A stretch of 49,042 nt of DNA from Candidatus Zhuqueibacterota bacterium (GCA_016929295.1 JAFGJB010000059.1:1-49042); one strand, 5' to 3'; shown: positions 16,495-35,699, numbered from the stretch's first letter. Numbers and translations: made by a program. The notes: generated from the sequence alone by a model not told the origin.

Positions 16495-16878
16495 ATGGAT
16501 AAGACACAGTTGAATCATTACAAAAAAATCATTCTGCAAAAACGTCGTGAGCTCGTCGAGCAACTCGACAAGCTTAAAGAAAGCGGCTTGAACAGCAGCG
16601 TGAGTGATTCTTCCGGGGATCATTCGACCTATTCGTTGCATATGGCGGACCAGGGAACGGACACCATGGAACGCGAAAAGCAGTACATGTTTGCCTCGCG
16701 GGAACAGAATTATCTCTACCACCTGGATATGGCCCTGGAGCGAATCGAAAAAGGCGAGTTCGGCAAATGCATTAGCTGCGGAGAGGAAATCGGACGCGAC
16801 CGGCTCGAAGCCGTGCCGCATGTGCGCCTGTGCATCAACTGCAAGGCAAAAGAAGAACTAACGAAAAGCAAATATTGA
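16495..16878 (+). CDS. DksA/TraR-family C4 zinc-finger protein
   Basis: A 127-residue protein with an N-terminal helical part (about residues 1-80, including HSTYSLHMADQGTDTMEREK, the usual family signature) and a C-terminal C4 zinc finger: CISC near residues 95-98 and CINC near 116-119. DksA-like proteins enter the RNA polymerase secondary channel and modulate initiation, often with ppGpp; short versions next to ileS-lspA occur in many bacteria. The acidic pair normally at the coiled-coil tip of DksA is not clearly present, so true DksA activity is uncertain. GAGAGG precedes ATG 16495. The stop TGA overlaps the proposed TTG start of lspA. Confidence 0.87.
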   Translation: MDKTQLNHYKKIILQKRRELVEQLDKLKESGLNSSVSDSSGDHSTYSLHMADQGTDTMEREKQYMFASREQNYLYHLDMALERIEKGEFGKCISCGEEIGRDRLEAVPHVRLCINCKAKEELTKSKY

Positions 16879-17429: not shown

Positions 17430-17503
17430 TGTCGACATAGTAAACCAGCCCCGCCGGTCGCCGCACCTTCATACTCCTCCTCCCTTTTCCCACCAAATTA
17501 ATG

Positions 17504-17536
17504 TTGATATCAAAATTTTATATTCTATATTATAAT
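17504..17536 (+). promoter_or_regulatory. Possible promoter of the sigma/CHAT island
   Basis: TTGATA at 17504-17509 and TATATT at 17526-17531 are 16 bases apart, with an overlapping TATAAT at 17531-17536. The segment lies in the 265-base gap before the sigma gene and is the only clear vegetative-type promoter pattern in it. No ECF-type GGAAC -35 element was seen, so autoregulation by the encoded sigma factor is not evident here. The rest of the gap (17430-17694) holds no gene I can support. Confidence 0.35.
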
Positions 17537-17694
17537 GAGGGTTTAGAGGAAATACGACTCTTCTATTACGCACTTTCTCATCTGACAAGGTTTTCTCTCC
17601 CAACCCTGACCCACATGCGTTGCATTTTCACCTTTGTGTAATAACAGCTATAACCACGCTCACAGCATGCCAAAATATGCAAAGCGAGGACAAT

Positions 17695-18270
17695 ATGGAA
17701 AAGTTACAAGGTATTCATGATCTGCTCAAGAATGCATATCTGGGAAACAAATCGAGCGAAGATGAACTTTTTGAATTAATTCGCGCAAGAATTTCCAACC
17801 TTCTCCGATATAAAATATGGGGGGCGAGTCGATCGCGAGGTGGACTCACAGAAGATGCGCGCGACTTATTACAGCAAATTATGATGGAGCTATATGATCA
17901 ATACAAAAAAAATAAATTGCCAACAGATGATCTGCTAAAATGGATTTTCACCATCATGAATCGACGAATTGTGGATTATTTCCGAAGAAAAAAGACAACA
18001 TCTCTGGAGGACATTCCCTATCCGCTACTGGACGAGGAGCAGATGGAAAGGGTGTTAGAAGCGAAAGAGCTGCACCGCCTGATCGGGCGAGCACTGGCGC
18101 GGGTGCCAGACAAATGTAAAAAGATCATCCAGGCTCTGTTGTACGAGAGCAAAAAAGACTATATCGAAAAACAATCTCACTATCAGGAAAAGAATACGAT
18201 CTATTCGGACATTCATCGCTGCCGCCGCCATTTTAGCGACATGCTGAAACTGGAGGGTTATGAGAGATGA
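17695..18270 (+). CDS. ECF-type RNA polymerase sigma factor
   Basis: 191 residues from ATG 17695, which follows AGGA with a 4-base gap; an upstream ATG at 17677 is possible but has a worse site. Region 2 spans about residues 20-100 (SEDELFELIRARI..., LLQQIMMELYDQY, IMNRRIVDYFRRKK) and region 4 spans about 125-185 (LIGRALARVPDKCKKIIQALL, then a helix-turn-helix-like ...IYSDIHRCRRHFSDML). There is no region 1 or 3, as expected for ECF factors. It overlaps the anti-sigma gene by 4 bases (ATGA). The sequence around region 4 is divergent: the usual LPxxxRxVF core reads VPDKCKKII. It probably activates some or all of the downstream island; the target promoters are unknown. Confidence 0.8.
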   Translation: MEKLQGIHDLLKNAYLGNKSSEDELFELIRARISNLLRYKIWGASRSRGGLTEDARDLLQQIMMELYDQYKKNKLPTDDLLKWIFTIMNRRIVDYFRRKKTTSLEDIPYPLLDEEQMERVLEAKELHRLIGRALARVPDKCKKIIQALLYESKKDYIEKQSHYQEKNTIYSDIHRCRRHFSDMLKLEGYER

Positions 18271-19067
18271 AATGTGTGGATAAAAAAACAGGCCGACTGC
18301 TATTTTTATATGAATTTGACAAGCTATCCGAGGCGGACCGGCATAGATTTGAAAAGCACTTGTTCGAGTGCGATTATTGTTTCCAAAGCCTGCATGCCTT
18401 ATCTCCTGTCGTCACATTAATGCGACAGGAAAAGGAGGTTTTTGCCAGTGATTTATTACCAGCGCCAGACGGAGGGGGGGCGGAAAAACGAGCAAAGAGG
18501 TATCGCCTTTTTCCGAGTCCAGCCGGGGGGTGGCGCTGGATTTTCAAGCCGGCGTTGGGTGTCGCGGTGTTGATGGTTTTCGCACTGTTTATCATTCGTC
18601 CATGGATCAGTGGGCCGCAAACGTTCGCGGATTTAGCCCGCATTGAGCCGTGGCCATATTACGCTTTGCATACGAGAGGCCAATTGGATGAAGATAAAGC
18701 GGATAAACTCTTTGAACAAGGCATGGAGTTGTACAACGAAAAAAAATACACCGCCGCGCTGGTCTCATTGGACTCGGCAAAAATACTCGATCCTGCGGAT
18801 ATGGGAAAGCAATTCTATTTGGGCCTAACATACTTGTTGGCGGACAGCGTAGATAGCGCGATCGTCTATTTGAACAACGTGATCCAATCCGGCGATGTCA
18901 CTTATCTAGACAAGAGTTATTGGTATCTCGGCAATGCTTATTTGCTCGAGGAAGATGGGGAAAAGGCAATACAGCAATTCGAAGCGTTGAGAGAGCTTGA
19001 CGGAGAGCGATGGAAGGTGGATAAGATGATGGGGAGGATAAAAAAATGTAAGGAGAATCAGCCATGA
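18267..19067 (+). CDS. Transmembrane anti-sigma factor with zf-HC2 domain and extracytoplasmic TPRs
   Basis: 266 residues. The N-terminus carries HLFECDYC near residues 31-38, the H-x3-C-x2-C zinc motif of ZAS/zf-HC2 anti-sigma factors, so the first 50 residues should hold the sigma factor in the cytoplasm. A Pro/Gly-rich linker leads to one membrane helix at about residues 91-111. The C-terminal part (about 140-260) contains TPR-like units (KLFEQGMELYNEKKYTAALV, YWYLGNAYLLEEDGEKAIQQF) and would lie in the periplasm, where it could sense a protein partner. Translational overlap with the sigma gene (ATGA) and with the next gene (ATGA) supports one transcript. Release may be by regulated proteolysis; this is inference. 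Confidence 0.8.
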   Translation: MKCVDKKTGRLLFLYEFDKLSEADRHRFEKHLFECDYCFQSLHALSPVVTLMRQEKEVFASDLLPAPDGGGAEKRAKRYRLFPSPAGGWRWIFKPALGVAVLMVFALFIIRPWISGPQTFADLARIEPWPYYALHTRGQLDEDKADKLFEQGMELYNEKKYTAALVSLDSAKILDPADMGKQFYLGLTYLLADSVDSAIVYLNNVIQSGDVTYLDKSYWYLGNAYLLEEDGEKAIQQFEALRELDGERWKVDKMMGRIKKCKENQP

Positions 19068-19924
19068 GAAACTTTTTTTTAGCAGTATCTGTGTTATTGA
19101 TTATCACAATGACATGCACAACTCCAGAACAAAAATTTCAAAAAGCTCAGGAAGAAAATACCATCAAAGCCTATCAGGAATTCGTCGATAAATATCCAAA
19201 CAGCAAATTTGCCGATATTGCGGGAAAAAAAATTGCAAGTCTGGCCTTTGAAAAGGCCATCAGCAGTAATACTGAACAAGCTTTTATAGAATTCATTGAC
19301 AAATACCCAGAGAGTGAGCTGGTTGTTGATGCAAAAAAGAATGTAGAACGTATCGCATTCGAACAGGCTGCGGGAAAAGCCACCGAACAAGCCTGTCGTG
19401 ATTTCATTGAAAAATATCCCGATAGTGAATTGGTGCCGGATGCGAGGAAAAAGATGGAAAAAATATCATTTGATGAAGCATCAAGAAATAACACCAAACA
19501 AGCCTACAAAGAATTCATAGCGAAATATCCAGGAAGCGAGTTAGTCGAAGAAGCGCAAAAGAAAATCGGCGCCATGCTATGGAAAACGATCTATGTAAAA
19601 AAAGAGGTGTTGGATTATTTAGCCGAGCTCGAAGTAAAAGAAAAACGCAAAATTGCCTTCTATACCTTTAGCAGAAATCCGCTGAGTAAATTTGAGGATA
19701 TAACGAACTCAAGCCAGTGGGGTTTTTGGGCAATGAATATGAGCATTTCCGAGTTTGCTGAAAATACCGGGATACAAGAAAAAAGTTGTAGGGCTATCGG
19801 GAATCCGCAATTCGTTGCCGAAACCCCTGATTTAAAGTTTTTCATGGTGCCGCTTGACGATTATTGGGACAAGGAGTTAATCGAGCAGGCAGGTGCACTG
19901 CGAATTCAATTTAAAAGTCGTTAG
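19064..19924 (+). CDS. Repeat lipoprotein with four 37-residue tandem repeats
   Basis: 286 residues. A signal peptide ends at ITMTC, so Cys18 is probably lipidated, though the lipobox is atypical (Thr at -1). Residues 32-179 are four tandem 37-residue repeats with the pattern (N/A)T-x2-A-x3-F(I/V)-x-KYP-x-S-x10-KK, resembling TPR-like helical pairs of the BamD/YbgF kind. The last 100 residues are unique: a lysine-rich link (KEVLDYLAELEVKEKRK) and a compact domain with WGFWAMNMSISEF and a Cys near 243; I do not recognise it. The gene overlaps the anti-sigma gene by 4 bases. A single related repeat occurs in the protein at 25525-26607, so the two may share a partner or an interaction surface. 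Confidence 0.72.
   Translation: MRNFFLAVSVLLIITMTCTTPEQKFQKAQEENTIKAYQEFVDKYPNSKFADIAGKKIASLAFEKAISSNTEQAFIEFIDKYPESELVVDAKKNVERIAFEQAAGKATEQACRDFIEKYPDSELVPDARKKMEKISFDEASRNNTKQAYKEFIAKYPGSELVEEAQKKIGAMLWKTIYVKKEVLDYLAELEVKEKRKIAFYTFSRNPLSKFEDITNSSQWGFWAMNMSISEFAENTGIQEKSCRAIGNPQFVAETPDLKFFMVPLDDYWDKELIEQAGALRIQFKSR
19157..19600 (+). repeat. Four in-frame 111-bp tandem repeats within the lipoprotein gene
   Basis: Units lie at 19157-19267, 19268-19378, 19379-19489 and 19490-19600, each encoding exactly 37 residues. The protein-level match is clear (each unit has (F)-(I/V)-(D/E/A)-KYP then S and KK at fixed spacing), while the DNA has drifted, so duplication is not recent. Confidence 0.8.
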
Positions 19925-19970
19925 TAAAACTTGGAAAATTTTATGAATAACATTTCATTGGAGAGGAATC

Positions 19971-22900
19971 ATGAGACAATTGACGTTCTCATTTATGTTG
20001 ATTTTTCTCGCATTATCAGCGATCCAGTCGCAAACGCAGGTTTCCGGATCTGTCTTTGGAACATGGACTTTGGATAATTCACCATATATCGCTACAAATA
20101 ATATCAAAATAGAAAAAGATGACTCATTGCTCATCGAACCAGGTGTTCAAATCCTTTTTGATGGTCATTTTTCACTGCGTGCCGATGGCTACTTGTATGC
20201 GGTGGGGACAAAAACAGATTCCATTTTATTTTCCAATAATCACCAGGGCTCGATGTGGGCGGGGATAGGCATCTATAATGACAAAAATAGCAGCACTCTC
20301 GAATTCTGCCGCATCGAACACTCGGATCAAAGCGGGATTAACATTTATGATGCATCGCCAAAGATTCGCTTTTGCCACATTTTGAATAATACTGATAGCG
20401 GGACGCAAAATCATATCGGCGAAGGCGGCGGCATCGATGTGCATTATGCCGATCCGGTGATTGAATTCAACTTGATCGAAAACAACTCGAGCGATCGCGG
20501 CGGGGGAATTCACATTTACGAAGATCCAAACAATAGACCTGGGCAATGTCGCATTTATAACAACATCATCCGTTTCAACACAGCAACCTGGGGTGGCGGG
20601 ATTAGAGTTTTCACGGAAGGAGCAGCGACAACCGGCGCCAAATGTACACCGATCATTCGTAACAACGTACTTGACGGCAATAGTGTCGCCGATCCGCAGT
20701 ATGGAGGAAATATCTACATCTTCCCTGGAGCCAAACCGGAAATAATTAATAATATTGTGATAAATAGTCCGAATGGAGGTGGTATACTTGACCTCTCGAG
20801 CTCGATCATTCAATACAACGACGTGTGGAACAACAAGCCGTATAATTATATTGATGCGACTCCAGGTTTAGGTGACTTTTCTGCGAATCCGCTTTTCATC
20901 GGCGGCTCACCTTTTGATTATCACCTCACTTCTTCGTCGCCGTGCATTGATGCCGGCCATCCAGCCGCGCCTCTCGATCCCGACAACTCGCGGGCGGATG
21001 TAGGTGTCTTTTATTTTGGCACGGATGCACCACCTCTCGGCGTCACTGACTTGACGGCGAACGCGGGTCATCAGAGAATAACATTGAGCTGGTACAATCC
21101 GAATATTATCGACTATGATTATACGCTCGTCGTTCGCGGTGAAACATCATATTCACAAAATCCAGGCGATGGATTTCCTATCTATTCTGGAGCGCGAACG
21201 ATCTGTCAAGATACAAGTTTGGTGAATAATAAAACATACTTTTACTCGGTGTTTGTTTTTGACAAAGCGGGCATGGTGTCACAACCTGCTCATATTTCTG
21301 CTCAACCTGAGCATCACGATTTATCGGTGCTGCGCGTTCCCTGGGATTTTCTAAAAATTCAAGATGCAATGAACGCCGCTGATCAGGGTGATACAGTGCT
21401 GGTGTGGCCTGGCACGTACAGTCCATCGGCAAATGGAGAATCGTTTCCCATTGTTATGGCGGACAATGTAGTGCTAATGAGTAAAGATGGTCGAGAAAAT
21501 ACGACTATTGACGCGGAACAGACGAATCTGGTAATGCTGGGAGCCAATTACTGTACTCTCGAAGGCTTCACGATCAGGAACGGTTGGAACTCAAGTTATT
21601 CACCGGACAATTCTGATAAAGTCGCCGGTGGAGGAGTACTGTGCCGGGGCATTATAGACATGAAAATAATTGATAACATAATAGAAAAAAATAGTGCTTT
21701 TCATAGCGAGTATTGGAATAGTGGTTATGGAGGCGGTATCTACTGCGCCGATTCAAAAGTGGATATCATCGGAAATATAATAAGGGATAATCGGACTGGC
21801 AGTGAATGTGGAGGGATAGGGTACACATACAGCAGCAATCCACTATCGCCGCCTCGGATATTAATTCTGGATAATTTAATTATCAGAAACGATGCTGGTA
21901 ATGCGGGAGGTATTGGCATCGGCGGGGTACATGCTGTTATCAAAAATAATGTCATCGCATTGAATAAAGTCCATGTCTTTGTTATTCCAACCCCTGGCGG
22001 CATTCATCTGGATAGTTTTTATTGGGGAAGTGCTGAAATCATTAATAACACAATTGCATACAATTACAATGTTGATATGCCCGGTAATATTAGCGGGATA
22101 TACTATAAAAGTGGCAGCAATCCGATCACATTAAAAAACAATATTGTGTGGGGACACAGGGAGGATGAAGTGGTAATAGGTAACACTGTCGCTTCTTCCG
22201 GTGCTAAAAAATTCATTGTCTCATATTCTTGTATTGAGGGTGGATATCCGGGCATTGGAAACAATAGTGACGATCCTCAATTCATTGATGTAGATTCTCA
22301 TGATTATCATCTAACAGCAAATTCTCCCTGTATTGATGCAGGAGATCCAAATCTCTCTCTAGATCCCGATTGTACACGAGCAGATATTGGCTCATTTTAT
22401 TTTCATCATGCTGATCTTGCGGATATAGAGATTGCAAGAGATCAGATAATTGTTCATGCTGATGAAAATATTGATACAACTTTGCAGATCTCTATTTCTA
22501 ATAAAGGTACAAGATCGCTCGGATTTAAAATCTACGACAAATCAGAATTTAATAACGAGGATGATAGTACACCAGACGAATATGGCTATTCATGGATCAA
22601 TAGCGACAATGATACAAAACTTGATTTTGAATGGATTGATATAAAAAATGTTGGTACAGAACTTGGGTATAGCAGTTTTGGCAAAAATTATGGCCCATTT
22701 CCGTTGGGATTTGATTTTGTTTTTTATGACTACATTTATTCTTCTATTCGAATCTGCTCAGAGGGCTTTCAAAGTTTTATGGACAATGATCACGGTGGTT
22801 GGAATCATCCAATCCCCTTTGAACTTGGGCCGAAAAATTTAGTTGCTACATTTTGGGATGATTTTGATGCTTCGGGTGGTAATCGAGTCAGCAAAATATA

Positions 22901-24251
22901 TTTTTGGCTTGATGAAAAAAATAAAAGATTCATTGTGCAATACGATAGCTTATTGCATGCTGATACTTCGTTAGGATACGAAACATTTCAAACAATCTTT
23001 GAAGAAAATGGTTCAATTCTCTTCAACTATAGAAATATCACTTCGCCAAACAACTGTACCGTCGGAATTCAAAATAACAGCGGTTATTTCGGATTACAGG
23101 TTGTCTACAACCATGAATTCCTTCATAGTAATCAATCCATCAGAATATTTCAGGGAGCTGAATGGTTGGAACTTGCGCCACAAAGGCACAATCTAGATCC
23201 AGGAGAGTTTGTAGAGTTGCCCATAACAATCTCCACTCATTATCTTAATCCTGGCTCATACAATGCATCCATCCTCATCGAATCCAACGACAATGATCAG
23301 GCGACGGTCAAAATCCCCGTCTATCTCAACGTCAATCCCACTGGCGGTGATTTTGTCCGGCCTTACCCCGTGACAGACCTGTCACTCGCCAGCACCTCGG
23401 ACAGCACCGTCACCCTCTACTGGACCGCCACTGGCGATGATTCCACCACCGGTGTAGCGAGCTATTACGATTTGCGTTTTCAAACAAAGCCTCCGGCGGC
23501 TGATACATTAGTCTGGTGGGAAAACGCACAAAAACATATGAATATGCCTGCGCCCTCTCCGGCCGGTCAACGCGATAGCGTGGTCATAAAACACCTCACA
23601 CCCGCCGAGGTGTATTATTTTGCCCTCAAAGTGGGGGATGATGCCGGCAATTGGTCGGATCTGTCTGATATCGTTTATATCTTGTCCGTACCCGTCGAAT
23701 TTGCCGTTTTTGAGGCGAGAGTTGCGGATACTAAAATAATCCTCAATTGGAAAACCTGCAGCGAATCAAATAATCTTGGTTTTGAGGTGCAACGAAAAAG
23801 TGCTCAATTTGAATTTCAGAACATCGGTTTTATCAAAGGATTTGGCACACCCTTAATCGAGAACCGGTACACTTTTGTGGATGAAAAAGTTGAGGCTGGA
23901 CAGCTTTACCAGTATCGTTTGAAACAGATCGATACAAATGGCTCTTGCACTTATTCCAACATTGTCGAAGCGTCGGCAGCACTGCCGAAAACATATGCGC
24001 TGCACCAGAACTATCCCAATCCGTTCAATCCGAGCACAACGATCAAGTATGAGCTGCCTAAGGAGGCGCATGTCACCTTGACTATTTTCAATTCCCTGGG
24101 ACAGGAAGTGGAGAGGCTTGTGGATGAAAATAAAGTAGCGGGCTATTATAAAATCGAATGGAATGCGTTAGATAAACCAACCGGCGTCTACTTTATTGTG
24201 ATGCAATCAAATGATTTTCACAAAACACGAAAATTGCTTCTCATGCGATAA
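19971..24251 (+). CDS. Secreted right-handed beta-helix protein with type IX secretion C-terminal domain
   Basis: 1426 residues. A signal peptide (about 1-20, ending near SAIQSQ) is followed by a first parallel beta-helix (about 60-330) with repeated short N/G/I-rich turns such as GEGGGIDVHY and NNIIRFN. A fibronectin III-like domain lies at about 350-440, a second beta-helix at about 455-790, a beta-rich region with SNKGTRSLGF at about 800-1110, another fibronectin III-like domain at about 1120-1220, and a C-terminal NYPNPFNPST domain (about 1350-1426) that directs export by type IX secretion. Beta-helix domains of this type bind or cleave polysaccharides; no catalytic site is evident. AGAGGA precedes the ATG. 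It is the largest secreted product of the island. Confidence 0.82.
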   Translation: MRQLTFSFMLIFLALSAIQSQTQVSGSVFGTWTLDNSPYIATNNIKIEKDDSLLIEPGVQILFDGHFSLRADGYLYAVGTKTDSILFSNNHQGSMWAGIGIYNDKNSSTLEFCRIEHSDQSGINIYDASPKIRFCHILNNTDSGTQNHIGEGGGIDVHYADPVIEFNLIENNSSDRGGGIHIYEDPNNRPGQCRIYNNIIRFNTATWGGGIRVFTEGAATTGAKCTPIIRNNVLDGNSVADPQYGGNIYIFPGAKPEIINNIVINSPNGGGILDLSSSIIQYNDVWNNKPYNYIDATPGLGDFSANPLFIGGSPFDYHLTSSSPCIDAGHPAAPLDPDNSRADVGVFYFGTDAPPLGVTDLTANAGHQRITLSWYNPNIIDYDYTLVVRGETSYSQNPGDGFPIYSGARTICQDTSLVNNKTYFYSVFVFDKAGMVSQPAHISAQPEHHDLSVLRVPWDFLKIQDAMNAADQGDTVLVWPGTYSPSANGESFPIVMADNVVLMSKDGRENTTIDAEQTNLVMLGANYCTLEGFTIRNGWNSSYSPDNSDKVAGGGVLCRGIIDMKIIDNIIEKNSAFHSEYWNSGYGGGIYCADSKVDIIGNIIRDNRTGSECGGIGYTYSSNPLSPPRILILDNLIIRNDAGNAGGIGIGGVHAVIKNNVIALNKVHVFVIPTPGGIHLDSFYWGSAEIINNTIAYNYNVDMPGNISGIYYKSGSNPITLKNNIVWGHREDEVVIGNTVASSGAKKFIVSYSCIEGGYPGIGNNSDDPQFIDVDSHDYHLTANSPCIDAGDPNLSLDPDCTRADIGSFYFHHADLADIEIARDQIIVHADENIDTTLQISISNKGTRSLGFKIYDKSEFNNEDDSTPDEYGYSWINSDNDTKLDFEWIDIKNVGTELGYSSFGKNYGPFPLGFDFVFYDYIYSSIRICSEGFQSFMDNDHGGWNHPIPFELGPKNLVATFWDDFDASGGNRVSKIYFWLDEKNKRFIVQYDSLLHADTSLGYETFQTIFEENGSILFNYRNITSPNNCTVGIQNNSGYFGLQVVYNHEFLHSNQSIRIFQGAEWLELAPQRHNLDPGEFVELPITISTHYLNPGSYNASILIESNDNDQATVKIPVYLNVNPTGGDFVRPYPVTDLSLASTSDSTVTLYWTATGDDSTTGVASYYDLRFQTKPPAADTLVWWENAQKHMNMPAPSPAGQRDSVVIKHLTPAEVYYFALKVGDDAGNWSDLSDIVYILSVPVEFAVFEARVADTKIILNWKTCSESNNLGFEVQRKSAQFEFQNIGFIKGFGTPLIENRYTFVDEKVEAGQLYQYRLKQIDTNGSCTYSNIVEASAALPKTYALHQNYPNPFNPSTTIKYELPKEAHVTLTIFNSLGQEVERLVDENKVAGYYKIEWNALDKPTGVYFIVMQSNDFHKTRKLLLMR
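24009..24077 (+). repeat. Duplicated type IX secretion C-terminal domain segment, copy 1
   Basis: These 69 bases match 25218-25286 at 59 of 69 positions, counted by eye, and similarity continues for about 90 more bases. Both encode the start of the type IX C-terminal domain (NYPNPFNPSTTIKYELPK). The high DNA match between neighbouring genes suggests recent duplication or gene conversion. Confidence 0.75.
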
Positions 24252-24308
24252 ACAAGTTACCGAAAAGGTACTTTATCCAAACTCACAGACGAATGAGGAG
24301 GCTATGAG

Positions 24309-25460
24309 ATGAAAACAAAAAAACATGCACTAGTTTTTTTATTCTCTTTTATATTGATTTTCTCACCGCATAATATACTAGCCAACTATGCCGGCGAATG
24401 GGTGGGAAAAACTGATAGTGGCCAGGATGTCTCATTCTTTGTAATGTCAGACTCAACCATCGAAGATTTCCAAATATTCCCCACGCTTGCCTTTTTCGAT
24501 GTCACAGCAATAAATAAAAATAGTGAGAATTGGACCTTTTCGTTTGCTAATAACAACGGAGATAGCATTTGGGGATCTTTTAATAGTTCTATGAATATCT
24601 TTGCAGGTAAATACTTTATGAATGGAACACAAATAGACGGCTGGCATGCTTCACCGATACAATCATCTTTGAAAGAGAAAATCCGTTTGTATTTAAAAAA
24701 TGGCTTTTCAAAAAAGAGCAAAGTAATGAATTTGTACGAATATGTAACGCTGCCAAAGCTCTCTGAAAATCCCGAATTTAAAAACAAGATTTATCTTTGG
24801 TCAGCGCCCGGCTCCGGAACGGGCCGATCCATACTTTGGCATGGCTATTTTCTTCCATATCGCATTGAAGGCAAAAAGTTTGAATTTAATGTCCATTTGG
24901 CAAATGGAAGCAAAGCGGCACCAAATTGGATTATGGCATACCTGCAAATTGGAAAAAACAAAATTTTTACAGAGCTTTTTCAAATTTCGAATGAATCTTT
25001 GCAAGCCTATAAAATGCTCGTTGAAACAGATTCTTTGATTTCGGCAGAAAAAGGTGAAGAAGTTCAATTTCTTCTATCGTTAGCGATAGGGAATGGTCCA
25101 ATTCAGACTGTATGGGGTTCTGAATTTGAGGCATATCTTGAAATTCCTGGTGTTGCAGAATCAAGCATTCCGCACTCAACGGCAAAAAACCGACCGAACA
25201 ATTTTTGTCTAAATCAAAACTACCCCAATCCCTTTAATCCGAGCACGACGATCAAGTATGAATTGCCGAAAGATACGCATGTCACCCTGACTCTTTTCAA
25301 TTCGTTAGGACAAGAAGTGGAGAGGCTTGTTGATGAACATGAAAAGGCGGGATATTATTCGATTACTTGGAATGCTGTTAAGTACTCGACAGGTGTCTAT
25401 TTTGTGGTGATGGAGGCGGAAGATTTCAAAAAATGGCTTAAGATTTTATTAGTACGATGA
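24309..25460 (+). CDS. Secreted protein with type IX secretion C-terminal domain, function unknown
   Basis: 383 residues. A signal peptide (MKTKKHALVFLFSFILIF..., cleavage near ILANY at about 25) is followed by about 90 residues with a YAGEWVGKTDSGQ start, resembling small beta-barrel domains. A middle region without recognisable family follows, then a C-terminal domain with NYPNPFNPST, LGQEVERLV and a final lysine-rich KWLKILLVR, as in the preceding gene. It should be exported across the outer membrane by type IX secretion and probably anchored or released by PorU. A strong AGGAGG lies 7 bases before ATG 24309; an ATG at 24304 gives only a two-codon frame. Codon usage is AT-rich compared with the housekeeping genes. 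Function unknown. Confidence 0.75.
   Translation: MKTKKHALVFLFSFILIFSPHNILANYAGEWVGKTDSGQDVSFFVMSDSTIEDFQIFPTLAFFDVTAINKNSENWTFSFANNNGDSIWGSFNSSMNIFAGKYFMNGTQIDGWHASPIQSSLKEKIRLYLKNGFSKKSKVMNLYEYVTLPKLSENPEFKNKIYLWSAPGSGTGRSILWHGYFLPYRIEGKKFEFNVHLANGSKAAPNWIMAYLQIGKNKIFTELFQISNESLQAYKMLVETDSLISAEKGEEVQFLLSLAIGNGPIQTVWGSEFEAYLEIPGVAESSIPHSTAKNRPNNFCLNQNYPNPFNPSTTIKYELPKDTHVTLTLFNSLGQEVERLVDEHEKAGYYSITWNAVKYSTGVYFVVMEAEDFKKWLKILLVR
25218..25286 (+). repeat. Duplicated type IX secretion C-terminal domain segment, copy 2
   Basis: Partner of 24009-24077 (59 of 69 bases identical). It encodes the same NYPNPFNPSTTIKYELPK segment in the neighbouring secreted protein. Most differences are in third codon positions. 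Confidence 0.75.
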
Positions 25461-25524
25461 TCTTGCCGCCTTTAATATTGAACTTTTTGCCTGAAAGAAG
25501 TTAACTTTTAAATAGGAGATGCAA

Positions 25525-26607
25525 ATGGAACCGAAAGATTGTTTTTTTTGGCTCGTTTATCGGAAATATCTTGCCTTTGTAATCATAACCTCGCTTATAT
25601 TTTCAATAGCTCCCTTGACAAAAATAGAAGGTCAAGAGTGTAATTTACAAAAAATAGACTTGGAGGAAAAAGACGGATATTATTTTGATGAAGGATATTG
25701 GCTCAACACATTTACAAAAAAACCTGAAATTTATTATTCTTTATCAAAAACTCTATTGATTGGTACTAAGGATAGTTTTTTATATTCTTCCATGGCCGTC
25801 ATTACTTTTGGTGGATTAGCGGCTCTTTTGGGGGCAAAAAAGGATACATGGAAAGTTGCTGCGGGCGTTTTTACTATATATTTCCCTATTACCACAACCG
25901 TAAATCTTAGATCGATCAAGAAAAAAACGATTGTTAGATATCAGGGCAATTGGAAGGATCCAGATCAACTTGGACTTTATAAGTATAAAGAGCACTGGAT
26001 TTCTAAGGCCGAATTTTGTTATCTGTCCTGGATGGGAGCAAAAAAATTAAATACGAAAGAAGCATATGAAGAATATTTAGCAAACTTTCCGATAGGTGAC
26101 TCTTCTGCCGTTGCCAGAGAAAAGCTTAATCAAATCTCATCGCTTAGGATGGGCAACAAAAATTCTATAAAAATTCAAGGTCCCAGCAAAGTACTAGTAA
26201 TTGAAAAGTTTTTCCTAAACAACGAAGAATGCGATGATAGCTTTCTAAATTTAAGAATACCAAGACAAGTGAAAAATAGCCTAGAAATAGACAAGCAAAA
26301 CTTTTTTGACCGAATCACAATATCATCACAGCAAGGAAATTACGAAGACTGCTTTTCCGATCATATCTTTGTTCTCAAAGCAGAACTGGAGAATTTTAAA
26401 TATGATAAAAATACATTAGACTTGCTGATAGACAACAAGAATCCGATTAAATGCAATTATTCCCTTTATAATCTATCAACGAATAAAGAAATTTTGTCAG
26501 GCTCCGCTAGTGGAAAAGGAAATAGCGTAAATGGAATATCACAAGCCATTGCATCTGCAATTTGTTCACATATTCTTGAACAAAAAGAGCAAATCACGAA
26601 AAATTAA
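25525..26607 (+). CDS. Membrane-associated protein of unknown function with one island-type repeat
   Basis: 360 residues from ATG 25525, which has AGGAG 6 bases upstream; an ATG at 25519 abuts that site and is less likely. A hydrophobic N-terminal segment (about residues 15-33) may be a signal anchor, and two more hydrophobic stretches (about 86-105 and 110-130) may form a membrane hairpin. At about residues 176-205 there is one copy of the helical repeat found four times in the lipoprotein at 19064-19924 (NTKEAYEEYLANFP then REKLNQI). The C-terminal half (about 215-360) is beta-rich and ends in a helix with SQAIASAICSHILEQ, resembling the last helix of DUF4410-type outer-membrane or secretion-accessory proteins. 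No family is certain. The gene is AT-rich. Confidence 0.6.
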   Translation: MEPKDCFFWLVYRKYLAFVIITSLIFSIAPLTKIEGQECNLQKIDLEEKDGYYFDEGYWLNTFTKKPEIYYSLSKTLLIGTKDSFLYSSMAVITFGGLAALLGAKKDTWKVAAGVFTIYFPITTTVNLRSIKKKTIVRYQGNWKDPDQLGLYKYKEHWISKAEFCYLSWMGAKKLNTKEAYEEYLANFPIGDSSAVAREKLNQISSLRMGNKNSIKIQGPSKVLVIEKFFLNNEECDDSFLNLRIPRQVKNSLEIDKQNFFDRITISSQQGNYEDCFSDHIFVLKAELENFKYDKNTLDLLIDNKNPIKCNYSLYNLSTNKEILSGSASGKGNSVNGISQAIASAICSHILEQKEQITKN

Positions 26608-26643
26608 TTTCATGAAGAAACGTTAATGTAAAGGGGATAGAAA

Positions 26644-28179
26644 ATGAGAAACAATAGGACTGTATTACTTTTCATTTTTTGCTATTATTTATTTTCGGGT
26701 TCTCTGCTTCCAGAAGAAATTCTTTGGAAATCCAATATAGATCGTCATCTCACCAAATTCTTGAAATTATTCAAAGATACGAATGAGATTATTGCTTTGG
26801 ATAAAAATAATAATCTCGTTTGTTTTGATACTCAAAATGGACAAGAAAAGTGGAAATGTACACTCAAAGCTGAGCTTGTCGGACTTTATCTTCTCGATGA
26901 TAAAGTTTATTGCGTTGTGGGCAAAGAAGAGAAAAATGTTTGCTATTATGCAATAAAGTATGACTCTGCGATGCTAACATTGGATAAATTGTTCGAATAT
27001 CCTGCCAAATTAGACAAAGAGTGGCTAATCGATAATTACTCAGCAGTCATTTTTTATCCTTATTTCGGCCAAGCTTTTCTTTTTGACTATGAGATAGCAG
27101 AGAATATTTTAATTCTATCAGCCTCTCAAGGCTACCCCTATGTTAATAATTTCATAACAGTCGCTATTGATTTAGCTTCAGACTCTTTGTTATGGACGCA
27201 TGAATTGAAGCCATATAAAAATAAAATCACATACTATTATAATGATCTATATTCATTTGTTTCCGGCAATTCATTCATCGATGTTTCAGATGTCTATACA
27301 CATAATGTTCTGAGTCTATGGCCTGTAAATAATGTAATAACTCCTAATCTTTTGTATAATAACGTGAATAAAAATTTGTACATTAAAAATCCTAAAAATA
27401 TAATTTCCATAGATATCAAAACAGGCAAAGGCAAATGGATGTCAAGGGATTTTGATAGCATTATAAATGTCCAATTTATTAATCTCAATAATCATTATGA
27501 TAAAATTATCATAGAAACAGAGGCTTGTATTCAGTGCTTAAACAATGAAACTGGAGATTTATTATGGTCTCAAAAAAAGCCATTGAGTGGGCGTTGTTAT
27601 AACACGACTTTGGTTGTTGACAATTACCTCCTCTATTTCGGTGAAAAAATAATAAAAGCAATAAATTTGATAGATGGTCAACAACTTTGGGACTTTAAGA
27701 ATAAAAGGTGCTTTAGCACATCACCCATAATTGACAAAGATAAAATAACTTTAATTGATGAAAATAATTTAGTGCTAATTGATAGATATTCCGGTCAAAT
27801 CATCACAAAACTGTTGCTATACTCCTCTCATGATAGCGGAAATAGAGAATACCTTCTCTCTACTCCCAAGTTTTATATATACAGAGAGTCAAAAGAACTT
27901 GTGGCGATTAACAAGAATACCATACAAATCTCTTGGAGAAATCAATTGAAAAACGATGCGCTTCCAGTATGGGTAAAAGAAAATCCTTTTCGCTTGTATT
28001 ATTCTGATGGCAAAGACTTTTTTGTACTCGATGAACATGGCAATAAAGAATTCAATATGAAACTACATGATAAGCAAGATCGACAAAATCGGATCATTAC
28101 AACCACTCTTGATGTTGAAAATGATATACTTTATGAATTGTCGAATGATGCCATGATAGCCTATTCTCTAAATGATTGA
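26644..28179 (+). CDS. Exported PQQ-like beta-propeller protein
   Basis: 511 residues. A signal peptide (about 1-24, RTVLLFIFCYYLFSGSL) precedes repeated four-stranded blades with the pattern (D/N)-x-x-(T/D)-G-x-x-x-W: TQNGQEKWKC, IKTGKGKWMS, NETGDLLWSQ, LIDGQQLWDF and RYSGQIITKL. These are the tryptophan-docking repeats of PQQ-like/BamB-type propellers. The conserved PQQ-ligand residues of the alcohol dehydrogenases were not seen, so it is probably a binding scaffold and not an enzyme. It lacks the NYPNPFNP C-terminal domain of its neighbours and should remain in the periplasm or at the inner or outer membrane. AAGGGGAT lies before the ATG; the gene is strongly AT-rich. Its place before the CHAT gene suggests a partner in the island. 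Confidence 0.72.
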   Translation: MRNNRTVLLFIFCYYLFSGSLLPEEILWKSNIDRHLTKFLKLFKDTNEIIALDKNNNLVCFDTQNGQEKWKCTLKAELVGLYLLDDKVYCVVGKEEKNVCYYAIKYDSAMLTLDKLFEYPAKLDKEWLIDNYSAVIFYPYFGQAFLFDYEIAENILILSASQGYPYVNNFITVAIDLASDSLLWTHELKPYKNKITYYYNDLYSFVSGNSFIDVSDVYTHNVLSLWPVNNVITPNLLYNNVNKNLYIKNPKNIISIDIKTGKGKWMSRDFDSIINVQFINLNNHYDKIIIETEACIQCLNNETGDLLWSQKKPLSGRCYNTTLVVDNYLLYFGEKIIKAINLIDGQQLWDFKNKRCFSTSPIIDKDKITLIDENNLVLIDRYSGQIITKLLLYSSHDSGNREYLLSTPKFYIYRESKELVAINKNTIQISWRNQLKNDALPVWVKENPFRLYYSDGKDFFVLDEHGNKEFNMKLHDKQDRQNRIITTTLDVENDILYELSNDAMIAYSLND

Positions 28180-28357
28180 TCTTTGGATCTGGTTAATTAA
28201 ATTAGCATAGCTATAAAGTGGGCGAAAGGCAATAGTCGCTGGATGTTAATATAATAATTGCGAGAGGGAAATCACAGTACTAGTTGATTTGTTCTTATAG
28301 CCCTTGGAGATGAAATCATCAGAATAGAATTCAACATCTAAATTGTAGGGATTCAAA

Positions 28358-31300
28358 ATGACAAGCCGGTTTTTTTTAACTTCATTTATTGTGCCCGTAT
28401 TCTTAATCTCGATTTTATCGCAAAGCATTTCGAACAACCTCTTTGCAAACGATACGCATCCTATAACAGAGGAAACTTTCATTTTTCAACTCCTTAAAAC
28501 TCTACAAAAAAATGATAGCTTAAAAATTCAGGAGCTCATCCAACAGCATCGCTATCCCACCCTCCATGCCGCAAACAAACTCCTGGACGGCTCAATCAAA
28601 GACTGGTTCGAAGAACGCCCAGATTCGGCAACTATAAAAATAGAGCAGGCTGAAAAGTTAGCCATCCTGTATCATCAGATCTATGAAACGCCTATCCTGC
28701 GTGAGCGTGTAGCACTTTATAAAAGCTGGTCCGCCATCGAAAAACGCGCCAAAGTGCGCGCCGATTCGCTGGTGAGAGTGGGGCTAGAGAACGGCAAAGC
28801 TGGCAAGCTCCAGGACGCCATCAATGTATGGGAAAAAACTCAAACGACATTCAAAGAGCTCGACCACGACCTCGCGGTCGCGCGCGGTTCGAAAGACATC
28901 GGTTACGCTTATCGACAATTAGGACAGTTTGATCCTGCCTTGCGCTATTTCGAAGAAACGAAATCAATCGCCCACGCCATCGACGAAAAAGCGCTCGAAG
29001 CGGATGCGATTCGCGAGATGGGCGTCGTTTCTTATATTAGGGGCGATGCAAGCACAGCGCTTAAGCGCTGGCAAGGGGCGATCCCCATGTTTCAACAAGC
29101 CGAAGATCGAAAAAGTGAAGGCATCGCCACCGCCCATATCGCTATCTATTATAAAAACAGGGGAGAAATCGACAAAGCGCTCGAGTACAACGAACGCGCC
29201 CTCACGTTGGCACGAGAAATCGGCAATGACTCGGAAGAGGCGAACATTCTCAATAATATTGGCAATATCTATATGGATTTTTTAGCCGACTATGACGTTG
29301 CGATCAGTAATTTTGAGCGCGCGGTCAAAATTAAAAAAGAACTCGGCGAGTTGCAGTATGTGGCTTACATCAACGGCAATATCGGCATTTGCAATAAGAA
29401 AAAGGGCGATTATGCGCAAGCATTCAAATATATTAACGAGGCATTGGATATCGCCGCACAGCTCAATCACAAACCTGTCAGAGGAGAGAATCTGAGTGAG
29501 CTGGCAACTTTATACACGGATGTCGGACAATATGGACAAGCAGCTCCCTATTACGAGCAGGCGTTAAAAATCCATCGAGAGACACAAAATGTCGGCGCCG
29601 AGCTGGAAACATTGATCAATTACGCTGTCAACTATGGACGATCGGGTGACTTTCACAAGGCGGATTCGTTGTATAGAGTCGCTCTGATCAAAGCGCGAAA
29701 GGCAAAACTCATCTCGTTCGAATGTTCACTATTGGCCAATCTGGGTTCACTTTGTTTTGATCAAGGTGAATACGGCGACGTCAAAGCCTATTGGGATGAA
29801 GCACTGGAAATATGTGCAGAGATTCATAATGTGCGACAGCAATCGCGTCTTTTCATCGATTACGGCTCACTCTTCCTGCAACAAAATGACCTCGTGCAAG
29901 CATGTAATCGATATCAGGAGGGACTTAACATTGCACGAAAAATTCAAGCGCCCGAGCTCATCTGGAAAGCCTACTTTGGCTTGGGACAGGTCTCCGAAAA
30001 ACAGAATAAACTGAATCAGGCAGTCGCTTATTATGATAGCTCGATCACGGAAATCGAATCCATGCGCATGCGAATCAAAGCCACGTCACTCAAAGAATCG
30101 TTCATGGAAGAAAAATATCGAGTGTACGAGGCCATCATTTTATTACTATTTAAATTAGGTGAGGAAGAAGAGGCTTTTGAATATCTGGAAAAAGCAAAGG
30201 CACAAAACCTGCTCGATATACTCTCTCGCGACAAAATAAAAATTGCCAGAGGCATACCACCCGAGCAGCTGCGTCGGAAGCAACTGCTTGAGTACAAGAT
30301 AACCAACATTCATAATGCCATCGCTGAGGCTTATTCCCAGAGTGGTGATAGTACGGCCATTGAGAAAAATGCGCAAAGCTTGAGAGACAGCCTGCAAGCC
30401 GTAAAAAATAAATATGAAAAATGGCTTGATCATATGGAGATCGAAAATCCAACTCTTTCACACTTGTCGGCAACATCACTGCATTTGCCGCAGGTGCAAA
30501 AAGCTCTTCCGGCAAGCACTGTTCTCATCGAATATTTCGTCGGAGAAGAACAAACATTCGTTTGGATTATTCGAACGAATGAATTCAAAACAGTCAGTAT
30601 GAATGTTAAAAAGCATGGACTTGACAGCCTAGTGACTTTGCTTTTAAATCAATTGAAAGATGCCAGAGATGGGAACATAAAAAATCTTGTTGATATTGTT
30701 TATGATTGTCAAGTGGCGCACGATTTATACATGCAAATCTTTGAACCTGTTGAGATTTTTCTCCGAAAAAGAGAACACGTCATCATCGTACCTGATGGCT
30801 TATTACATTACCTCCCCTTTGAGGGCCTGGTGACAAAGGTCAAAAAAAGGAGACATAGTCGTGATGACCTTAAGGTCTATCGCCAAACAAAATACCTCAT
30901 CCATGACTATAATATATCTTATACTCCATCTGCCACCATTCTATTCCTGCCACGCCAACAAGATGAACAGCTCGAATACAGTGGCCAATTGCTCGCATTT
31001 GGCAATCCAGATTTTAGCGGAGAACAAAAAGACGCCGACGTCATTGAAGCGCAATACAGTGCTCTCCGGTTACGTTCAGCTTTAAATTTTGCATATACAC
31101 CTTTGCCAAAATCCGAGCAAGAAGTAAAAAATATCTGCAATTTAATAAAACCTTCTGTTTATTACCTGGGACCTGAGGCGAAAGAGCAAAACTTTAAGCT
31201 ATACGCCAGCAATTATCCCAACATTCACATCTCGACCCATTGTGTTGTCGAAGAATCTCAACCTCTTTATTCAAAAATCGTTTTCGCACAAAAAAAAGAC

Positions 31301-31663
31301 TCACTGGATGATGGCTTGCTGCACGCTTTTGAAATCTTTAATCTGCAGCTCAATGCAGACATGGTCACTCTAAGCGCCTGCGAAACCGGCCTTGGCCGCT
31401 TTAATCGTGGAGAGGGACTGATAGGTTTGACGCGAGCATTTATGTGTGCCGGAACACGCACTCTTGTTGTGAGCTTATGGAGCATTGATGAATATACTGG
31501 CGAGTTAATGATTTCATTTTATGAAAATCTGAAAAAAGGCAAAAGAAAAGTCGAGGCGTTGAGAGATGCGAAACTTGAATATATCAGTGCACCGAAGGAT
31601 AAGACATTCCGCGCCCACCCCTTTTTATGGGCGCCATTTATTCTAATAGGAACTGCAGACTAA
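28358..31663 (+). CDS. TPR-CHAT protein: exported caspase-like protease of the island
   Basis: 1101 residues. A hydrophobic N-terminal segment (about 5-27) followed by SNNLFAN looks like a signal peptide, so the protein is predicted outside the cytoplasm. TPR units (A-x4-G-x2-Y-x3-A) fill about residues 135-560. Residues about 590-720 form a helical linker, and a CHAT (caspase/HetF-type) domain spans about 745-1101, with IVPDGLLHYLPFEGL near 810-823. The His of HISTHC is His961 and the Cys of LSACETGLG is Cys1008, a complete His/Cys pair; THC replaces the more common THG. AGGGAT lies 6 bases before ATG 28358, and a 178-base AT-rich gap separates it from the propeller gene. Substrate unknown. 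It converges on porU. Confidence 0.85.
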   Translation: MTSRFFLTSFIVPVFLISILSQSISNNLFANDTHPITEETFIFQLLKTLQKNDSLKIQELIQQHRYPTLHAANKLLDGSIKDWFEERPDSATIKIEQAEKLAILYHQIYETPILRERVALYKSWSAIEKRAKVRADSLVRVGLENGKAGKLQDAINVWEKTQTTFKELDHDLAVARGSKDIGYAYRQLGQFDPALRYFEETKSIAHAIDEKALEADAIREMGVVSYIRGDASTALKRWQGAIPMFQQAEDRKSEGIATAHIAIYYKNRGEIDKALEYNERALTLAREIGNDSEEANILNNIGNIYMDFLADYDVAISNFERAVKIKKELGELQYVAYINGNIGICNKKKGDYAQAFKYINEALDIAAQLNHKPVRGENLSELATLYTDVGQYGQAAPYYEQALKIHRETQNVGAELETLINYAVNYGRSGDFHKADSLYRVALIKARKAKLISFECSLLANLGSLCFDQGEYGDVKAYWDEALEICAEIHNVRQQSRLFIDYGSLFLQQNDLVQACNRYQEGLNIARKIQAPELIWKAYFGLGQVSEKQNKLNQAVAYYDSSITEIESMRMRIKATSLKESFMEEKYRVYEAIILLLFKLGEEEEAFEYLEKAKAQNLLDILSRDKIKIARGIPPEQLRRKQLLEYKITNIHNAIAEAYSQSGDSTAIEKNAQSLRDSLQAVKNKYEKWLDHMEIENPTLSHLSATSLHLPQVQKALPASTVLIEYFVGEEQTFVWIIRTNEFKTVSMNVKKHGLDSLVTLLLNQLKDARDGNIKNLVDIVYDCQVAHDLYMQIFEPVEIFLRKREHVIIVPDGLLHYLPFEGLVTKVKKRRHSRDDLKVYRQTKYLIHDYNISYTPSATILFLPRQQDEQLEYSGQLLAFGNPDFSGEQKDADVIEAQYSALRLRSALNFAYTPLPKSEQEVKNICNLIKPSVYYLGPEAKEQNFKLYASNYPNIHISTHCVVEESQPLYSKIVFAQKKDSLDDGLLHAFEIFNLQLNADMVTLSACETGLGRFNRGEGLIGLTRAFMCAGTRTLVVSLWSIDEYTGELMISFYENLKKGKRKVEALRDAKLEYISAPKDKTFRAHPFLWAPFILIGTAD

Positions 31664-31668
31664 AACAT

Positions 31669-34600
31669 TCAGCGCGCCACAATCAGCTTTTCAACAATCT
31701 CCGCCGTCAACGTCTCTTCCCCGCGCGACGATTTGACCGAAATCTTGTACAGGTAGACGCCATTGGCCACCGGATCACCCGCATCATCGCGGCCGTCCCA
31801 CTGCTCCGGGAAGACGTTGTAACCGACTCGCCCCGGCAGAGTCGCGAAGGATTTTATCAATCGTCCGGCCACGGTGAAAATCTTGATCGACACCTCCGCG
31901 TCCTGACTCAACTCATAACGGAACGTGCACTCTTCCAACATCGGATTGGGATAAGTGAGGGGATGCCGGATCTCCAATCTGGAATCATCGATGACGACAA
32001 AATGAGTCTCGACGATGGAAGAGTTGTTCGAGTTGTCCCAGGCCTTAACCTGAACCGTGTGTTCGCCGATCGGCAGGTCGAGAATCGTGTATGTGAGTGT
32101 GCCGTCGGTGTAGCTGCCTTCGTTGTAGGTGAAATATTCCGTGATATCGATAGAGTTGTTATAGTCTTGATCAATGGTGAGAAGAATCTGATGTCCGACA
32201 TCGCCTGCCGTATTGACGCCGCTCACCGAATCGGAGATGGCAAGATGTAATGTCGGCCGCGAAGAGACATAGTCACCCGGTATAAAATCTTCACTGCCAA
32301 AATAGACATTCATCCTGGGACCGTCCTTGTCGATGAGGTCGACCGCTGTGCCGCCAACCGCCAGGCCGCGTCGGTCGCCGGTGCCGGAGCTGGCATCATT
32401 CCAGAAATAGAGGCTGATCCGCCCGTCGCGCCCGCCGTAGGATATATCTTTTGGCACGATGAACTGCACATTGAACGCACCACTGACAATCGTGGCACCG
32501 CCGCGAAAGATGGTATTGCCGGTCGTATACAGACCGGTAATTGCACTGGTGCCGCCGGGATTATTATAGTTATACTTTTTGCGCGTATCCAGCGTGCGCA
32601 CCAGTATCTTACCTGTATAATCCTGTAAAAGCCGGCCCTGGTCTTCAACATGGCCGCGAATCATCATCCGACTGAGCGCCTGGATGCTGTCGGGTTGGAT
32701 GTCATCAATCACGGCCCGATAGCGGGGAGCGCATAGACGCATGGCCGGATCGCCAAAAAGATTGTATTTTTCATTATTGATGCTGTTGCCGCTGCCCGCC
32801 AGTTTGGCACGCATGACGGCATCTCCAAGACGCGCTGTCAGGCCGCTCCTGTCATAGGTGAGAAAAAGTTGGTCGTACAAGCTTTTATTGAATGCAGCAT
32901 TGTCGCTGGCGTACGCCAGACGGGCGGATGACACCATGGCAACCGCCCCTCGCGCCGAGGCATTGAGGATATCCTCGGCAAAACTCTGTGAGGTCGGTTG
33001 ATCCCAATGAGCAAATTCGCAGGTGGCCGCCACCCACAACGCCATGCGTCTGCCGTTCTGTATTTTTCCAAAATCACGCGTATTGAGCAGCACGCGTTCG
33101 TGCGCCCATAAATCGGGATTGCCATGGCCGATGTAATTAATCAGCAGCGAGCCGGCATTTATCTGTTCGAGCAAATCGAGCGTTGCAGCGGGCTTTTCGC
33201 GTCCGGTAATGCTGGCCGTGCGCACTTGTGGATAATTGATCAGATAAATTTTCTTCACATCCAAAAGCTCGGGGACATGCCGCTCGGCCAGGTCCTCGGC
33301 ATCTTCGGTGTGAATTTTCTCCCAGTCCGTGTCGTTAGTGTACTCGTCATCCGCGACGATGGTGATCGTTTTGAGCCATTCGCCGTACTCCGGATTGGTC
33401 TCGTACGCAATGATCTTGTCAACCGCATTTTGCGCTTCATCCACGGTCTGCGCCACCAGTCTGCCGATGGCTATCTGCATGCCGCTATTGTCGCCATTGA
33501 GATAGGTGTACCAGTCATCGGTGACGCGCGTGTTGGTCTCCGATTGGCCACCCGTTTCATAGGGTATGATTAGATTGGGGACATTGTTCTTGAGAATATT
33601 TTTATAGTCAAAATGACCATCGCCAAACAGCAACACATAGCCGGGATTTCCCCAGTTTTCTTTTGCATAGCCCAAAAAATTCCGTATCGCCGCCGGATCG
33701 TTCAGTCCCCAACCGAATTCATTAATCACATCAGAGATGTCAACCACCTCGGTATCAAGTTTTTCTTGCGGGCTCCAGTTTTCTCGCAGACTTGCCAGTT
33801 GTTCCGCCTGCTGGCGAAAGTCGTCATGGGTGATGATGATGTAATCGACATCCTTTGTCTGTCGCAAGCCGGTGATATTCTCGACGGAGATGGCAGCTTC
33901 TTCAATATTTTTGTATGCCGGCGAGGCAAGAGCGACATAGCGTCTGGCGTCGATTGTCGTGGCCTGATCGGCAAAATCGATGACGCCGTTGGCATAGTTT
34001 ACATCAGCGATCTCGCGAATATCTGATATATCTGTGACATCGAAGACGCGCACGTCGTTGTGCGAAAAACCGCTGATCTGATAACGAGCGATATCGTTTC
34101 TCAGTGGTGAATGAAATAAAAGCAGATCGTCGACGGCATTGAACCGGCGTTTGTATTCCAGTTCAATATAGTCGACGTATGAAAAAGACAAGTCCGAGGC
34201 GACATTATAGTTGATGGTGACTGTGTTGTCTCCTTGCATCAGAACGCCGTCCGCACTGAAGAGACGCTCGATGAGAGAATAGCTCGTCGAACCGCCATAT
34301 TGATCAAATTGACCGAGATTGTTGCCGTTGACATAGACGGAAAAATAGTGTTGGCCCGTGGTGAGCGAAGAAACAGCCGTCCGCACTGTTGTCTCCTCCG
34401 CAGCAACCGCGTCCGGCAAATGAAAGGTGACGGAATAGGCATTATCGTCTCGCCGCAACTCGCGCCCCAGCCAGGTGATGCCGGATTTATAGACATTATA
34501 CTTTTCCTCTTCGATCCAGGCCAGATCATTGAAAAAAGGCTCTGCTGTCCGTCCGGCTGTCGACTGCGAGGAAACCGGCCGAATGCGTTTGCCCGGCGCC

Positions 34601-35682: not shown

Positions 35683-35699
35683 ATGAACTCGATCCCTTT

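Follow-up and report, generated by a model that had tools for sequence, protein, structure and literature searches.

An eight-gene block inserted between lspA and a PorU-like gene

We analyzed a stretch of 49,042 nucleotides from a Candidatus Zhuqueibacterota bacterium (GCA_016929295.1, JAFGJB010000059.1), hereafter the window, in which eight same-strand ORFs on the + strand constitute the block under study. The features of the locus are as follows:

16830..17429, + strand: lspA, left flank of the empty site, outside the island (empty-site comparison)
17430..31667, no strand: whole island, 14.2 kb, between lspA and the PorU-like gene (blastn against the sister-species locus)
17695..18270, + strand: gene 1, ECF-type sigma factor, 191 aa (Sigma70_r2; TIGR02937)
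18267..19067, + strand: gene 2, transmembrane anti-sigma factor, 266 aa (zf-HC2, TM, TPR_2)
19064..19924, + strand: gene 3, TPR_6/YfiO-like repeat protein with a signal sequence, possible lipoprotein (Cys18) (domain search)
19971..24251, + strand: gene 4, 1426-aa exported parallel beta-helix-like/fn3 protein with a type IX C-terminal sorting domain (NYPNPFNPST) (Por_Secre_tail, TIGR04183)
24309..25460, + strand: gene 5, 383-aa exported protein with a type IX C-terminal sorting domain (Por_Secre_tail, TIGR04183)
25519..26607, + strand: gene 6, 362-aa orphan protein (no family found by domain search)
26644..28179, + strand: gene 7, 511-aa exported PQQ/BamB-like beta-propeller protein (PQQ_2, 54.8 bits)
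28358..31663, + strand: gene 8, TPR-CHAT protease, 1101 aa (CHAT PF12770, 214 bits; many TPRs)
31669..36048, - strand: PorU-like gene, right flank of the empty site, outside the island (kind assigned by eye from the sequence, no family search)

All eight ORFs were present and domain searches agreed with the labels given to them in the initial annotation. The 4-base overlaps described there among the first three genes were confirmed at both junctions (sigma/anti-sigma and anti-sigma/lipoprotein), and gene 3 is translationally coupled to the anti-sigma gene. The remaining intergenic gaps measured, in order, 46, 57, 58, 36 and 178 bases; the previously given values of 178 and, as a lower bound, 36 were correct, whereas the upper bound of 64 for the other gaps has to be lowered to 58. 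In a promoter and terminator scan, counts equalled those of shuffled sequence and therefore no operon claim rests on it; a sigma-70-like site was seen at 17504-17533.

The block is a discrete, gained insertion. Using blastn, homology with the sister locus (L333, G001:C130) ended at window position 17429 (82%), the final base of lspA, and restarted at 31668 (80%). The sister belongs to the same genus, and about 40 bp separate its lspA from its PorU-like gene (45 bp between the genes, 37 bp between the two ends of homology), each gene being 79% identical to its window counterpart. The same adjacency was found in two further genomes of the family (G004 and G003), so that one gain on the branch leading to the window is a more economical account than several losses. 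The CHAT stop codon lies 4 bp from the right edge of the insertion. The eight genes arrived, or were kept, as one unit. No 12-mer common to the two island edges was found, i.e., no flanking repeat or target-site duplication. The GC content of the island genes was 32-47%, against about 50% (49-52%) in the flanks. Within the island, genes 6 (34%) and 7 (32%), at 25519-28179, were far under the rest (38-47%), which hints at an island assembled from more than one source.

The sigma factor and its transmembrane anti-sigma factor

The sigma gene starts with an ATG at 17695, with an in-frame TTG at 17620. Its product matched Sigma70_r2 (31 bits, cut-off 24) and TIGR02937 (47.7 bits, cut-off 42.9). 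Taking ECF sigma factors as having Sigma-70 regions 2 and 4 without regions 1 and 3, the window protein belongs to them, region 4 having no Pfam match in the window member itself and being present in 22 of 37 linked relatives. Its nearest relative was the sigma gene of a second island described below (phmmer, 2e-13).

Gene 2 is a class I (zf-HC2) anti-sigma factor by its N-terminal HxxxCxxC zf-HC2 domain, its single TM and the adjoining sigma gene. The zf-HC2 domain (25.8 bits, cut-off 22.2) spans residues 10-38 with the HxxxCxxC motif at 31, followed by a TM at about 92-110 and three TPRs at 143-264, which are predicted to be periplasmic. Nearly all the anti-sigmas of linked loci likewise had a single TM after zf-HC2. 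The AlphaFold model (mean pLDDT 85.5) gave the TPR domain a predicted fold resembling the peptide-binding TPR domains of CHIP and HOP, and among PDB entries the anti-sigma profile matched the anti-sigma domains of RsiW and DdvA.

A predicted exported TPR-CHAT protease

The product of gene 8 carries an N-terminal signal sequence, about 12 TPRs and a CHAT domain at 786-1098, whose catalytic candidates are His957/His961 and Cys1008. His957 and Cys1008 were invariant in 32/32 CHAT sequences, and by its domain and residues the window protein is a CHAT peptidase with an intact catalytic pair. A hydrophobic N-terminus was found in 53 of the 62 linked CHATs with a complete start, compared to 3 of 88 sigma factors. 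Since 52% of all same-size ORFs at these loci also had one, export of the CHATs is enriched rather than exclusive, the calls being made by a hydropathy rule and not by a trained signal-peptide predictor. A C-terminal TM segment was present in 32 linked CHATs, with a K/R-rich tail after at least 13 of them; CHATs with this second hydrophobic segment would be held N-out, C-in. The CHAT protein is thus predicted outside the cytoplasm, as previously annotated, on the side of the membrane where the anti-sigma TPRs are predicted to lie, and the two topologies match.

The outer part of the linked CHATs varied. Two of them (L173:3941-6325 and L185:2216-4588; 790-794 aa), in sigma>anti>CHAT operons, had no TPR, and their first 500 residues matched no Pfam family. 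A third locus (L309:4294-9977, G024:C183) encoded an exported protein of 1451 aa in which FG-GAP repeats and UnbV_ASPIC are combined with a CHAT domain at the C-terminus, its gene lying directly upstream of the sigma/anti-sigma pair; its ectodomain is likewise not made of TPRs. A constant CHAT with a varying outer part beside sigma/anti-sigma reads like a set of sensors with one output route.

Genes 3 to 7 of the island

Among all loci fetched, a relative of gene 3, limited to its N-terminal half, was found only in the second island. Genes 4 and 5 encode type IX secretion substrates, having a signal peptide ahead and a C-terminal sorting domain, with scores of 32.5 and 35.5 bits for Por_Secre_tail (cut-off 27) and 36.4 and 34.4 for TIGR04183 (cut-off 23), respectively. 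Outside the sorting domain, gene 5 matched no known family and its N-terminal 300 aa had no relative at other loci. One repeat of gene 6 resembled the lipoprotein repeats, a weak match (E 6e-4). Apart from the sorting domain of gene 5, genes 5, 6 and 7 had no counterpart at the other loci fetched and therefore look like cargo.

Type IX proteins near the core trio of sigma, anti-sigma and CHAT were weakly enriched (23/43 vs 7/24 loci, Fisher p = 0.07). We therefore rejected them as a defining part, and they too look like cargo. Of the eight-gene system first proposed, the sigma/anti-sigma/CHAT core was retained and the type IX proteins, as an integral part, were not.

The sigma/anti-sigma/CHAT trio recurs across several phyla

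Starting from the CHAT protein alone, we surveyed 53 genomes of the class, fetched the flanks and called sigma and anti-sigma genes with profiles built from those of the window. An anti-sigma lay within 5 kb of 39 of the 59 TPR-CHATs of 850-1400 aa in these genomes, and an ECF sigma was near 37 of the 59. At the measured anti-sigma density, about 0.7 linked loci would be expected by chance for 59 such proteins. When the profile calls were checked with Pfam, zf-HC2 was recovered in 22/39 anti-sigmas and Sigma70_r2 in 31/37 sigmas. None of the 21 TPR-CHATs longer than 2000 aa had an anti-sigma or sigma nearby. Very long TPR-CHATs (2500-2900 aa), at G000:C84 (L078) and 20 similar loci, form a conserved family seen in nearly every class genome, never beside a sigma/anti-sigma pair in the stretches fetched. 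Among the short CHATs with at least 5 kb on both sides, 64 were linked and 19 unlinked; these 19, without an anti-sigma within 5 kb, suggest that some CHATs act alone.

As the full-length CHAT profile was too variable for a collection scan, and its PDB matches were swamped by TPRs, we used the CHAT domain alone for GTDB. An anti-sigma was found near 25 of 80 loci and a sigma near 24 of 80. The linked loci included members of Saprospiraceae, Flavobacteriaceae, Cytophagales, Acidobacteriota and Thermodesulfovibrionia; several came from cultured strains, e.g., Olleya, Aureibaculum and Agaribacillus. The window genome itself held two further trio modules (G000:C297 and C232). The pairing of the sigma pair with CHAT, for which a neighbourhood search had been suggested at the outset, was therefore borne out at dozens of loci in several phyla, the genes being not always apart.

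The association could be accidental or a shared-island effect, if sigma pairs and CHAT genes both ride genomic islands; the low-GC insertion in the window and the somewhat enriched T9SS genes would fit this explanation. However, it does not account well for 39 linked loci where 0.7 were expected, for trio members that are adjacent, often within 100 bp of each other, in both gene orders and in several phyla, or for long TPR-CHATs without linkage. We consequently disfavour an accidental association, which we consider highly improbable.

At 65 linked loci, 28 CHAT genes were convergent with the sigma pair (tail-to-tail), 26 were in the order sigma>anti>CHAT and 11 in others; overall, CHAT lay outside the sigma operon, tail-to-tail or otherwise, at 32 of the 65. 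Both orders occur, so that the linkage is more than simple operon drag. The window has the loosest spacing among the linked loci, with CHAT 9.3 kb from the anti-sigma, five genes between and the 178-bp gap ahead of the CHAT gene. In a tree of CHATs the linked label was clustered, and the window CHAT grouped with the CHATs of G037, G024 and the second island (support 98). CHAT and anti-sigma distances were correlated (r = 0.50; partial r = 0.29 given sigma); this positive mirror-tree signal is partly accounted for by shared ancestry and, being so confounded, was rejected as evidence of co-evolution.

The core of the island is the sigma/anti-sigma/CHAT trio, which belongs to a widespread and, it seems, so far unnamed variant of sigma/anti-sigma signalling in which the partner is an exported caspase-like protein. 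We found no description of the split sigma/anti-sigma/TPR-CHAT trio in the part of the literature that was covered, an absence of evidence.

A homologous island and other CHAT clusters

The second island was found in G061, the MAG 'Bacteroidetes bacterium FW215_bin.12', with all genes on one strand in the order sigma, anti-sigma, small lipoprotein, TPR-CHAT, three genes, second TPR-CHAT and type IX protein; farther on came a relative of the window TPR lipoprotein (8e-10) and a WD40-caspase. Besides the sigma match given above, phmmer related the anti-sigmas of the two islands (7e-36), and the second TPR-CHAT showed 47% identity over the CHAT domain. Both islands have the sigma/anti-sigma pair, a CHAT, the TPR lipoprotein and a type IX protein. 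The WD40-caspase (L305:6575-10078, G061:C16), exported and 1167 aa long, has its caspase domain (Peptidase_C14) at the C-terminus, so that three caspase-superfamily proteases (two TPR-CHATs and this one) lie under one sigma/anti-sigma pair.

Elsewhere in the window genome (L077, G000:C343:16000-32400), two large WD40 proteins (1487 and 1499 aa) alternate in tandem with two small weak-CHAT proteins (588 and 583 aa), followed by a strong CHAT protein and then a TPR protein, all on one strand. The arrangement resembles a CHAT/WD40 cluster in its own right, for conflict or surveillance.

Comparison with known systems

The closest known system is DdvS/DdvA of Myxococcus xanthus (PDB 8rot, 8rw5 and 8rlz; Bernal-Bernal 2018 and 2024, as cited in PMC12288465). 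DdvA (8rot and 8rw5) is a transmembrane anti-sigma whose single chain also carries TPR and CHAT, and DdvS/DdvA controls a CBASS/CRISPR island (PMC12288465). The signal inactivating DdvA was unknown as of 2015 (PMC4374960). The two systems have in common an ECF sigma, a transmembrane anti-sigma, TPR and CHAT parts: the anti-sigma profile (A1) found the DdvA anti-sigma domain (E 0.0095), the CHAT profile found DdvA with His and Cys aligned (E 0.013), and a fold search found it at E 3e-14. They differ in that these domains form one chain in DdvA, whereas here they are divided between two genes, zf-HC2-TM-TPR and SP-TPR-CHAT. In addition, DdvS drives a CBASS/CRISPR island, whereas the neighbours here are surface proteins. 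Not being a single polypeptide, the window pair falls outside the DdvA-type anti-sigmas, and no DdvA-like anti-sigma/CHAT fusion was found among the 226 CHAT-bearing ORFs fetched; the pair carries that domain set in split form. It plausibly works like DdvA, whose CHAT is not known to be catalytic.

The fused anti-sigma/TPR/CHAT structure of DdvA would also suit a non-proteolytic sensory complex of CHAT and anti-sigma, in which TPR-TPR contact passes a conformational signal, as DdvA may do, and the CHIP/HOP-like fold of the anti-sigma TPRs points the same way. However, the catalytic His and Cys were invariant in 32/32 CHATs, although a mere scaffold could do without them, and we regard such a complex as quite unlikely.

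In type III-E Craspase, the TPR-CHAT protein Csx29 cuts the inhibitor of an ECF sigma and thereby acts upstream of that sigma (Csx30, CASP-sigma; PMC10028731). Csx29 and the window CHAT have the same fold (8eey, 7xsq, 8d9f; E about 1e-14, TM-score to target about 0.5), whereas Csx29 is cytoplasmic and RNA-guided and the window CHAT is predicted exported, and Csx30, unlike the window anti-sigma, is not a zf-HC2 protein. Family searches found no Csx30 or gRAMP among the eight island genes, and the window sigma scored 22.4 bits against the type III-E sigma family NF041236, well under the cut-off of 100; a CRISPR link was therefore rejected, and the window lies outside type III-E, which requires that sigma, Csx30 and gRAMP/Cas7-11. 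The initial annotation had limited the parallel to one of logic; this was fair, although the fold is also common to both. A shared fold does not show that the pathways descend from a common ancestor.

The genomic surroundings of ECF54 sigma factors include genes for CHAT, subtilase and carboxypeptidase proteins, with proteolytic control proposed; these sigma factors are described without an anti-sigma, and the model is actinobacterial (Geodermatophilus; PMC8999054). A CHAT gene likewise lies in the context of the window sigma, which nevertheless does not belong to ECF54, since a zf-HC2 anti-sigma gene is present and overlaps the sigma gene. With DdvA (PDB 8rot) fusing anti-sigma, TPR and CHAT, and with the CHAT context of ECF54, the initial statement that the combination is not described could not be upheld. 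EACC2/TRADD-N caspase systems have ECF sigma and TPR (DUF1822) genes in their neighbourhood (PMC8195603), and thus also bring together a caspase-superfamily protease, an ECF sigma and a TPR protein; by contrast, they have a caspase rather than a CHAT and an EACC2 domain, with no transmembrane zf-HC2 anti-sigma described. PADLOC returned only generic TPR matches, and a known defence system was rejected.

A proposed route from the CHAT protease to the sigma factor

In DegS-RseA-RseP and RasP-type proteolysis, a single-pass anti-sigma receives a periplasmic site-1 cut and then a site-2 cut; the known site-1 proteases are DegS, PrsW, signal peptidases and Prc, and the review names no CHAT or caspase (PMC10202637). 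As far as sequence can tell, the topology of the window pair fits such regulated intramembrane proteolysis: the anti-sigma is single-pass, with a predicted periplasmic domain that would be available to a site-1 cut. The difference is that a CHAT is proposed here, whereas the site-1 proteases there are not CHATs. The window genome has two M50 site-2-protease-like genes.

With modest confidence, we lean towards reading the island as a horizontally gained sigma/anti-sigma/TPR-CHAT signalling unit in which the TPR-CHAT cuts the anti-sigma and so acts upstream of sigma. The zf-HC2 domain would hold the ECF sigma in the cytoplasm, while the single TM would place the three-repeat TPR domain in the periplasm, the compartment to which the TPR-CHAT would be exported. 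There, the long TPR array of the CHAT protein, alone or with the TPR lipoprotein, may sense an envelope or surface cue, and the CHAT domain would make the site-1 cut in the periplasmic part of the anti-sigma. The remnant would then fall to site-2 and cytosolic proteases, as is usual, and sigma, once free, would transcribe its own operon, the downstream surface proteins being the output. The analysis shows the gene content, the insertion in one piece, the recurring linkage of the trio, the agreement in topology and the intact catalytic residues; the cut, its direction, the signal and the regulon we infer.

The main rival is that CHAT is itself the output of sigma, a periplasmic protease made once other proteases have freed sigma, which would act on misfolded or foreign proteins or kill the cell. 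Such a role may be read from the 26 linked loci with sigma>anti>CHAT operons, from the downstream position of CHAT in the window and from the multi-protease G061 island, where two TPR-CHATs and a WD40-caspase downstream of one pair look like a set of effectors. By contrast, CHAT is outside the sigma operon at 32/65 linked loci, DdvA fuses CHAT to the anti-sigma itself, and both the CHAT protein and the anti-sigma carry TPR arrays. The convergent CHAT genes (28/65) fit a partner or activator better than an only product and, together with the DdvA fusion, suggest a partner role. The initial annotation had CHAT as an induced product. We see an output role for CHAT as possible, if on the improbable side.

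Significance

A large fraction of the ECF sigma factors of Bacteroidota and neighbouring phyla have no known route by which they are switched on. In one survey, just 6% of Bacteroidetes ECF genes had a class I anti-sigma nearby (PMC7406223). A broader generalization, which we put forward as rather doubtful, is that periplasmic CHATs are a widespread, unnamed class of site-1 protease for ECF anti-sigmas in Bacteroidota-related phyla and Acidobacteriota, mobile as islands, with the fused DdvA and the Csx29/Csx30/sigma circuit of type III-E CRISPR as offshoots of this sigma/anti-sigma/TPR-CHAT circuit, which itself has no CRISPR part. The recurring sigma/anti-sigma/protease trio offers a concrete and testable candidate activator for such ECF sigmas, and brings caspase-superfamily proteases into ordinary envelope signalling. 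It also provides a non-CRISPR relative for studying the origin of the protease-sigma circuit of type III-E, and predicts what inactivates DdvA.
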